From contig NZ_ADFP01000128.1 of the NCBI RefSeq assembly GCF_000177335.1, forward strand, positions 1 through 33,453: DNA of 33,453 nt, in the 5' to 3' direction. Position numbers and translations under genes: made by a program. The notes beneath the pieces are model-generated. The model saw only the letters and a list, made by a program, of their open reading frames with translations, made no database searches and was not told the DNA's origin. Below, one piece after another: positions 12,532 to 32,354 of this stretch; within the stretch, counting starts at the first letter, position 1; the number at the start of each line of letters is the position of its first letter. Source of the stretch: Pyramidobacter piscolens W5455. GTDB taxonomy: Bacteria > Synergistota > Synergistia > Synergistales > Dethiosulfovibrionaceae.

Positions 12532-12574
12532 AAAAAACCTTTCGGACGGAACGTTCCGTCCGAAAGGTTTTTTT
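12532..12574. terminator. Bidirectional intrinsic terminator between the LysR gene and metQ
   Basis: A perfect inverted repeat (12536-12569, core CGGACGGAACGTTCCGTCCG) lies between an A run on the left and a seven-T run on the right. The two flanking genes converge, so it serves both. Confidence 0.92.
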
Positions 12575-17247: not shown

Positions 17248-17396
17248 ACTATTTCTTGATAAAAAGCATTAACATAGTTTGCCGGGCGCTGCGAGAGAGT
17301 TCAGTCGCTCAGAACTGTCTCGAATGCTGCGCAGCTCGCTGTGTGAATCTCCCTCGCAATGCCTCTGAGTTCGGCATTTTTATTGAGAAATAGTAT
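17246..17396. mobile_element. MITE-like element (151 bp) with ~22-bp terminal inverted repeats
   Basis: The left end ATACTATTTCTTGATAAAAA and the complement of the right end ATACTATTTCTCAATAAAAA differ at only two positions. The ends contain TA next to CTATTTCT, so a TA target duplication of the IS630/Tc1-mariner kind is possible. The interior is GC-richer, folds into imperfect hairpins (for example CGAGAGAGTTC with GAACTGTCTCG) and has no ORF. It joins exactly at the truncated permease. Confidence 0.6.
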
Positions 17397-29787: not shown

Positions 29788-30540
29788 TTATTTCTTCCCC
29801 AGCTTCCACTTCTCGCGCAGGGCGGGGAGGGCGCCGTCGGCTTCCATGGCGGCGATGGCGCCGTCGAGTTCGTTTTTCAGCGCGGTGTTGCCGAGGTTGA
29901 CGGCCAGAGCTTTGCCGGCGCCGGTGAGCTGGAAGGTGTAACCGCGCACGGCTTTGCCTTTGAAGCTGGGCAGTTCGAGGATCTTGTCGGCGACGGGCAC
30001 GTCCATGAGGGTGAAGTCGCTGCGGCCGGTGACGATGTCCCACAGGCACTCTTCGATCTTGGCGAAGTTCTTGATCTGAAAACCCAGTTCCCCCGCCAGC
30101 GGCGTAAGAAAAACGTCTTGCGTGGTGCCGACGGGCACGCAGCCGCGCAGGCCGCGCAGATCTTCGAGCTTTTTCACGGCGACGTTGGGCGCGGTGACGA
30201 AGGAGGCCATCGTGGGCACGTAAGGCGTGGAGAAAAGCACGCGTTTGGCGCGGATGGGCGTGGCGCTCATGCCGGCGGCGATGACGTCGGCGCGGTCGGT
30301 GACCAGCGAGGGGATGACCATGTCGTAATGGCCCGTGTCGAGCCAGACGATCTTTTCGCCGAGGCGGCGGCCGATCTCTTCCATCAGGTCTTTGTCGAAG
30401 CCGTCCAGCTCGCCTTTTTCGTTGAGGAACTCGTAGGGCGGGTAGGTGCTGGCGGTGGCGACGCGCAGGTCGGCGCGGGCCGCCAGCGGCACGATCACAA
30501 GCGCCGCGAGCGCGGCGGCGGTTTTTCCGAAAAATTTCAT
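29788..30540 (-). CDS. ABC transporter amino-acid-binding protein (SBP family 3)
   Basis: The 250-residue protein has a signal peptide (AALAALVIVPLAARA) and a family-3 binding domain: STYPPYEFLNEKGELDGFDKDLMEEI, MVIPSLVTDRADVIAAGMSATPIRA, and a C-terminal ELDGAIAAMEADGALPALREKW. These proteins trap polar amino acids for ABC importers. No permease or ATPase gene is adjacent, so it is an orphan binding protein here. I use the second ATG (30540), 8 nt after GGAGG; the first is too close. A parS palindrome lies between it and its promoter. Confidence 0.92.
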   Translation of the reverse strand: MKFFGKTAAALAALVIVPLAARADLRVATASTYPPYEFLNEKGELDGFDKDLMEEIGRRLGEKIVWLDTGHYDMVIPSLVTDRADVIAAGMSATPIRAKRVLFSTPYVPTMASFVTAPNVAVKKLEDLRGLRGCVPVGTTQDVFLTPLAGELGFQIKNFAKIEECLWDIVTGRSDFTLMDVPVADKILELPSFKGKAVRGYTFQLTGAGKALAVNLGNTALKNELDGAIAAMEADGALPALREKWKLGKK

Positions 30541-30581
30541 TCTCATTGCCTCCTTGAAAATGGCCGGCGTTGACGGCCGCA

Positions 30582-30621
30582 GTGCGATGAAAATGTTCCA
30601 CGTGGAACATTTTCATCGCAC
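30582..30621. promoter_or_regulatory. parS: ParB-binding parS site within a perfect 40-bp palindrome
   Basis: The core TGTTCCACGTGGAACA (30594-30609) is identical to the parS consensus used by ParB/Spo0J in many bacteria. The palindrome extends perfectly to 20 bp on each side, ending in GTGCGATGA... It has no T run and so is not a terminator. Bacterial parS sites cluster near oriC, so this region may be origin-proximal; no parAB or dnaA is in the window. Confidence 0.88.
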
Positions 30622-30688
30622 GACAGTCGGCGGCTGGATCCCTTTTTCCGCGCCGCTGGCGCGGAAACGGTCTTTCGTTGCAGAACGT

Positions 30689-30717
30689 ATTATAGAGCAA
30701 AAAAAATCGCCATGCAA
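30689..30717 (-). promoter_or_regulatory. Probable promoter of the amino-acid-binding protein gene
   Basis: TATAAT (30694-30689) with TTGCAT 17 bp upstream (30717-30712), partly inside the terminator of the MocR gene. RNA would start near 30682 and pass the parS palindrome and a GC-rich hairpin (about 30647-30667) before the start codon. Confidence 0.6.
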
Positions 30718-30736
30718 TAATAAAATTGCATGGCGA
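30699..30736 (-). terminator. Intrinsic terminator after the MocR gene
   Basis: TCGCCATGCAAT (30736-30725 side) pairs perfectly over 12 bp with ATTGCATGGCGA (30718-30707), then eight T (30706-30699). Confidence 0.92.
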
Positions 30737-30756
30737 ACGCTTTTGCCTTTGGGCGA

Positions 30757-32133
30757 TTAATCGGCGATCAGTTCGCCGAGAACGCGCAGCCCTTTTTCGA
30801 GTTGGTCGCGCGGCGGCGTGCAGAAAGCGACGCGCACGGCGCGGGCGGGCGGCGTTTTGCCGACGGCGAAGCGTTCGGCGGCGGCGACGCGGACGCCCCG
30901 CGCCAGGGCCGCCTGTTCGAACTGGACGCTCGTGAAGCGTTCGGGCAGCGTCAGCCAGCGGAAGATGTCGGCGTCGCCGCCGCGGCAGATCGCGTCGGGC
31001 AAAATTGCGCGCACGAGGCGGCTGCGCTTGCCGGTGTGCCGTCGGTGCGCGGCGATGATGTTCTCGAACTGGCCGGAGGCGATGACGCGCGCCGCCAGTT
31101 CGGCCATCATCGGCACGACGCCGACGTTGAGGCTGTACAGCGCGCCGGCGACGGCCTCTTTGCGGGGGGCTGGCACGGCCACGCAGGCGGCGCGCAGCCC
31201 CGGGGCGATCACTTTCGACATCGTGGCGATGTAGAGGCTGCGCTCCGGCGCGAAGCTCGACACGGAGGGCACGCCGCGCTGCATGAGCTGATTGGTGCCG
31301 TCCTCGATCAGCAGCGCGTCGTGGGCGCGCAAAACGGCGGCGATCTCGCGGCGGCGGTCTTCCGGGAGCGTGGCGGTGGTGGGGTTGTGGCAGGCGGAGA
31401 TCAGGTAGACGCCGTGGATCTTTTCGCTGCAGCAAAGACGTTCGAGGTCGGCCGGTTCCATGCCCTCATCGCCGCTCCTGACGGGGACGAGTTTGACGCC
31501 GAACATGGCGGCGGCCGACTTGACGCCGGGATAAGTGTGGTCGTCCACGGCGATCTTTTCGCCGCGGCGGAACAGCGAGGCGAAGATGGCCGAGATCGCG
31601 TTCTGGGCGCCGTTGGCAAACAGGATCTGCTCGCGGTGCGCCTCATGTCCGCACAGGCGCATGAACGTAACGGCGGCGTCCTTCTGCCACTCGTCCTCGC
31701 CCTGGGCGTGGAAGCTGAACAGCGCGGCGGCCTCGTCGCTGCGGAAGAGCGAGCGGGCCATCTCCAGCAGCGCGGCGTTGGCAGAATCCTCCGGTTGGAC
31801 GCTGCCCATGTCGATGACGTGCGCTCCTTCGGCGCGTTCGAGAAACCGTTTGTCGGTGAGCGCGCTGTACGCCACGAACGTGCCGCTGCCGACGGTGGCG
31901 GTGAGCAGCCCCTTGAGCTCGCAGAGCTTGAAGGCTTTGGCCACGGTGCTGACGTTGACGTCGAGAAAGTCGGCCAGTTCGCGCTGCGGCGGCAGACGCG
32001 TGCCGGGCTTGAGCGCGCCCGACGCGATATCCTCCTCGAGCGTGCGCGCCAGCGTCAGATAGAGCGCGCGTTCGCTGCGGTCCAGCTTCGGCCGCCAGCT
32101 CATTGGATAGTCGTCGAAGGAATTGTAGGGCAT
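30757..32133 (-). CDS. MocR-type GntR regulator with aminotransferase domain
   Basis: The 458-residue protein has an N-terminal GntR winged helix (about residues 20-85: IASGALKPGTRLPPQRELAD, NVSTVAKAFKLCELKGLL) and a fold-type I aminotransferase-like domain. The PLP lysine is kept in ATMSKVIAPGLRA. MocR proteins sense an amino acid or vitamin-B6 form through the PLP domain and regulate a linked gene. The neighbour downstream is the orphan amino-acid-binding protein, whose control is a fair guess. ATG 32133 follows GAGGTGAC; TATAAT at 32158-32153 would give a very short leader. Confidence 0.92.
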   Translation of the reverse strand: MPYNSFDDYPMSWRPKLDRSERALYLTLARTLEEDIASGALKPGTRLPPQRELADFLDVNVSTVAKAFKLCELKGLLTATVGSGTFVAYSALTDKRFLERAEGAHVIDMGSVQPEDSANAALLEMARSLFRSDEAAALFSFHAQGEDEWQKDAAVTFMRLCGHEAHREQILFANGAQNAISAIFASLFRRGEKIAVDDHTYPGVKSAAAMFGVKLVPVRSGDEGMEPADLERLCCSEKIHGVYLISACHNPTTATLPEDRRREIAAVLRAHDALLIEDGTNQLMQRGVPSVSSFAPERSLYIATMSKVIAPGLRAACVAVPAPRKEAVAGALYSLNVGVVPMMAELAARVIASGQFENIIAAHRRHTGKRSRLVRAILPDAICRGGDADIFRWLTLPERFTSVQFEQAALARGVRVAAAERFAVGKTPPARAVRVAFCTPPRDQLEKGLRVLGELIAD

Positions 32134-32354
32134 GATCGTCACCTCGCCGTTCCATTATAGACGAGAGCCGCCGCCATTTCGCGTTTTGTTTTTGTTGTTT
32201 TCGCGGAAAGCAAGTTGACCGCGGTGTTATAATTTATCCGACGCACGATGAAGAGCCGCGTGTTTCGCTCTTTTGCCGCGCGTTTTTTATCGGCCGGCGC
32301 CGTGCCGAAGGGAGCGTGCGGGACGGCCTGCCGTATCATGTGAAACAAGCGAGT
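32134..32354. other. Divergent intergenic region between MocR and the zinc operon
   Basis: It holds the MocR -10 box at 32153-32158 (minus) and a TATAAT near 32226 without a good -35 (plus). A 31-codon plus frame from 32250 has no ribosome-binding site and I do not call it. I found no clear Zur/Fur-type box. Confidence 0.5.

Follow-up and report, generated by a model that had tools for sequence, protein, structure and literature searches.

Some 54 exact copies of parS dispersed around the chromosome of Pyramidobacter piscolens suggest that ParB marks most of it

The sequence analysed here (the window) is a stretch of 33,453 nucleotides of Pyramidobacter piscolens W5455 (Synergistota; contig NZ_ADFP01000128.1, assembly GCF_000177335.1). 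Near its end, a perfect 40-bp palindrome lies between a gene for an amino-acid ABC transporter substrate-binding protein, whose named relatives are Pyramidobacter, and a gene for a MocR-like regulator (Table 1). It is the second longest perfect palindrome in the window, and its 16-bp core is an exact parS, whereas a match with as many as three mismatches would be expected only 0.12 times in a window of this size. The palindrome lies downstream of the terminator of the regulator gene, whose stem is also visible in Pyramidobacter sp. C12-8 (L016), in the relatives G005 and G001 and in L018, one of two rumen genomes compared. It also lies downstream of a -10-like box conserved in the leader alignment of all relatives compared. 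If this box is used, the palindrome is in the 5' leader of the binding-protein gene, and it is probably transcribed as leader, although a simple promoter scan reported no full sigma-70 site. No par genes are present in the window; the par locus is on another contig (C49). The core read in frame gives MFHVEH, so that a spurious small ORF covers the site, and such ORFs could be mis-annotated as genes.

Table 1. Coordinates of the features within the 33,453-nt window
Feature	Position	Strand	Sequence or supporting observation
parS core	30594-30609		TGTTCCACGTGGAACA; one of 54 exact copies in the genome
20-bp extended core	30592-30611		AATGTTCCACGTGGAACATT; family consensus (A/G)ATGTTCCACGTGGAACAT(C/T), the two flanking positions being biased in 96 sites of two genomes
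Whole perfect 40-bp palindrome	30582-30621		GTGCGATGAAAATGTTCCACGTGGAACATTTTCATCGCAC; outer arms specific to this locus and not conserved in all species
Intrinsic terminator of the MocR-like gene	30707-30736	-
-10-like box	30689-30694	-	TATAAT
Amino-acid ABC transporter substrate-binding protein gene, downstream of the site	29788-30546	-	TIGR01096, E 1.9e-39, below the curated cut-off
MocR-like (GntR/aminotransferase) regulator gene, upstream of the site	30757-32142	-	NF052286, E 3.7e-101, below the curated cut-off
Spurious small ORF covering the site	30446-30760	+
42-bp perfect palindrome between convergent genes	12532-12573		AAAAAACCTTTCGGACGGAACGTTCCGTCCGAAAGGTTTTTT; looks like a bidirectional terminator
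Copy of a dispersed repeat of roughly 50 bp	17263-17293

The preliminary description of this locus, a perfect palindrome carrying a parS core in the leader of a binding-protein gene with no par genes nearby, is confirmed. Its interpretation, that the site points to an origin-proximal location and that the longer palindrome might have an extra role such as affecting the leader RNA, is only partly supported. The core is a parS-type ParB target by sequence and the genome has a ParABS locus, but the origin-proximal reading was not supported, and a special role of the longer palindrome in the leader RNA was not supported by conservation.

The core is not rare in this genome (2.56 Mb, 140 contigs; hereafter G000). 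We found 54 exact copies, and 77 allowing up to two mismatches, against 0-1 for a reversed-pattern control (0 for exact copies). Three other Pyramidobacter species hold 53, 55 and 57 exact copies. When we searched 188 Synergistota genomes with the 16-bp palindrome TGTTNCACGTGNAACA, only these four had more than 3 sites; the other 184 hold 0-3, and those that have a site mostly carry TGTTTCACGTGAAACA. Outside Synergistota the comparison rests on the literature, in which the highest number that we found is 20-23, near the origin (PMC7333895). We found no paper on Pyramidobacter parS or on the function of ParB in Synergistetes.

To examine how the sites are distributed, we used the near-closed genome G005 (main contig 2,777,081 b), with parB at 162 kb and dnaA at 172 kb, in which 55 of 57 sites could be placed. 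Clustering near the origin, whose absence had been named beforehand as grounds for refutation, gave a mixed outcome: density is higher on the dnaA/parAB side (KS p 9e-5; Rayleigh p about 4e-5), with 22 of 55 sites within 0.3 Mb of dnaA, 52 within 1.0 Mb and 5 in the far third (18 expected), but sites cover about two thirds of the chromosome. The 0.99-Mb arc at 1.10-2.09 Mb, opposite dnaA/parAB, holds only 4 sites (19.6 expected), and none of 2000 simulated sets had so few in any 33% arc. Close clustering at the origin, a usual trait of chromosomal parS although not one that defines binding, is therefore lacking in this one near-closed genome. GC skew calculated from sampled stretches switches near 0.3 Mb (origin) and near 1.13 Mb (terminus), so the terminus may lie at the edge rather than the centre of the sparse arc. 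The G005 counterpart of the site in the window (2,476,359) is about 0.47 Mb from dnaA/parAB and about 0.60 Mb from the GC-skew origin.

The sites are strongly biased in their placement. Using a simple codon-usage gene caller, whose calls are approximate, we observed that 47 of 50, 51 of 55 and 49 of 49 sites in three genomes are intergenic (147 of 154), against about 17% noncoding DNA. Convergent gaps hold 41-47% of sites (18% expected by length), whereas divergent, promoter-bearing gaps hold 4-10% (22% expected; 2-5 sites seen, 10-11 expected). Several sites directly follow strong intrinsic terminators. Spreading by a mobile element was rejected, since the flanks are mostly unrelated and the flanks that recur in some sites are terminator hairpins. 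A dispersed repeat of roughly 50 bp, at 77-90% identity, lies next to one parS site (L095:2966-3020) and recurs at about 20 places per genome in G000, G001 and G004, including the contig of the window.

It is evident from comparison between species that many sites are retained in place. Of 50 sites of the window's genome (the four others were not read), 32 have a reciprocal best partner among G005 sites and 33 among G001 sites. The flanks of 28 alignable pairs differ at 17-22% of the positions 15-29 bases from the centre, so an unconstrained 16-mer would stay intact in about 2-5% of cases, that is, about 1-3 sites by chance. Because exact sites were compared, the identity of the cores in these pairs is partly by construction and loss rates are not fully measured; the argument is the rate of retention. 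Lost sites show small deletions or substitutions.

The long arms, in contrast, are not a conserved device at this locus. The palindrome spans 40 bp in the window and in C12-8, 32 bp in G005 and about 20 bp in G001, where the core stays, and the two rumen genomes (L017 and L018) have the leader without the site. The leader folds well below its shuffles (z -5.5), but the palindrome itself drives this, and no Rfam family reached its gathering score. The hairpin was also considered as a terminator, but it has no U-tract on either strand. Nevertheless, across the family, arms beyond 20 bp match better than in mixed controls (score of 5 or more: 6 against 1.25 in G000, 8 against 0.58 in G005). One G005 site with a 48-bp palindrome looks like a bidirectional terminator with parS at its apex; in G001 one of its stem pairs is changed on both sides (G-C to A-T), and in G000 the core has one mismatch.

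Each Pyramidobacter genome has a single ParB by two profile models, with ParB_N and ParB HTH domains, encoded in the order rsmG-parA-parB with two parS sites just upstream of rsmG. No second ParB or Noc gene was found with these models. By alignment to solved ParB and Noc chains, and following the residue scheme of PMC7383237, the residues at the positions that read Q173, K179, K184 and R201 in Noc are R, K, S and G, the parS class, with R173 and G201 being the parS-reading residues. An N-terminal GRGLGALL segment also aligns to solved ParBs. The protein scores 207.5 bits on the Noc model (nucleoid_noc), below the cut-off of 315, and its N-terminus, read by eye only, does not look like the Noc membrane-binding amphipathic helix; a membrane-linked occlusion mechanism thus has no direct support. 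In the Dethiosulfovibrio-like genomes G006, G008, G010, G011 and G012, a second ParB-family gene is present, and the main ParB of G006 reads R, K, K, R at the specificity positions, a mix of the ParB and Noc residues. Both smc and MinC are present. In the window's genome smc matches in two pieces that do not join in one frame (contig C97:9459-12838), which could be an assembly error or a real frameshift; it is whole in genomes G001, G004, G005 and G007.

Two rumen-type Pyramidobacter genomes (G002 and G003), likely but not shown to be those of the rumen contigs L017 and L018, have no exact core, but 97 and 63 matches with up to three mismatches, against 8 for each control. In 111 kb of G002, chosen for its sites, 45 such sites are mostly intergenic (38 of 45, against 14% background). 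Their mismatches fall mainly on the inner positions 5-8, 85 of 104 being transitions, while TGTT/AACA is kept, and eight rumen-lineage sites fold as strong hairpins. This suggests an older dispersed system with a relaxed target, or partial decay.

We therefore suggest, with reasonable confidence, that the palindrome is a parS site, a loading site for the ParB CTPase clamp, and belongs to a set of about 54 sites spread over most of the Pyramidobacter chromosome. The analysis itself establishes the number and exactness of the sites, their intergenic placement and preference for convergent gaps, their retention at orthologous places, their higher density on the dnaA/parAB side with a site-poor arc opposite, their restriction to this genus within Synergistota, and the presence of a single ordinary ParB together with parA and smc. 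That ParB binds all these sites, with CTP-dependent loading of clamps at dozens of places, so that most of the chromosome except a sector opposite the origin is marked, is inferred from sequence alone, as are SMC loading and any control of division. In this view, the likeliest use is at the scale of the chromosome: a dispersed centromere that segregates or organises bulk DNA through ParA/SMC and that may, like Noc in B. subtilis, keep septation off unsegregated DNA while leaving the terminus side unmarked. The 40-bp length would be the site plus local inverted flanks, and would not be required. Such an array is unexpected, since extra parS sites are reported to be tolerated only within about 500-600 kb of the native cluster in Caulobacter and P. 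aeruginosa.

Known systems resemble this one in different respects. The chromosomal ParABS systems of B. subtilis, Caulobacter and Streptomyces share the exact parS core, the rsmG-parA-parB locus, one ParB with the same two domains and the presence of smc, but the reviewed species have from one to 20-23 sites near the origin (PMC7333895). The Noc-binding sites of B. subtilis are similar in number (about 70) and layout, being found around most of the chromosome and scarce on the terminus side (PMC4331003), but here the motif is parS rather than NBS and no Noc-type paralogue was found. The SBS sites of SlmA in E. coli are dispersed palindromes with a similar distribution, as described in PMC4331003. 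SlmA belongs to an unrelated protein family and has an unrelated motif. Finally, ParB of P. aeruginosa contacts numerous sites beyond the origin cluster, although these are half-parS sites (PMC10419367), while here they are full 16-bp palindromes.

Among alternative explanations, the one that survives best, although unlikely, is relaxed constraint, with extra parS sites being simply tolerated and accumulating without a dedicated use. Positions do turn over between species, with about a third not shared and decay visible, and smc reads as two frames in the window's genome, though it is whole in other species carrying the same array. However, exact sites outnumber those with one or two mismatches (54 against 23), totals are similar (53-57) in four species despite the turnover, cores are intact amid diverged flanks, and placement is nonrandom. 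It is also unlikely that the dispersed sites belong to a different DNA-binding protein, such as a transcription factor with a parS-like palindrome, with only the sites by parAB being true parS. The number and spread are unlike known chromosomal parS, and binding by ParB is itself inferred; but the sites beside parAB and the dispersed ones are the same 16-mer, an exact parS, divergent gaps are under-used, and no second protein was found in a search confined to the ParB type. Least likely, the sites could be mainly RNA or terminator hairpins with the parS core a by-product of their apices, as the excess of inverted arms, the 48-bp palindrome and the rumen hairpins might suggest, but most sites have no arms beyond about 20 bp, several lie beside a separate terminator, the hairpin in the window lacks a U-tract and conserved arms, and no stem requires the exact 16-mer.

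A bolder possibility, which we regard as tentative and less likely than not, is that Pyramidobacter has turned its parS into a genome-wide, almost holocentric array, and that its single ParB does both origin segregation and Noc-like chromosome protection without a duplicated Noc; the rumen sister clade would then be the same system with a relaxed target sequence. Why parS sites cluster at origins, and why their number varies, is posed as an open question in PMC7333895. A genus that naturally carries more than twice the highest number that we found reported, spread over most of the chromosome, is a ready comparison, in which ParB spreading, SMC loading and septum placement could be followed with many loading sites. 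It also bears on how a Noc-like layout might arise without gene duplication.
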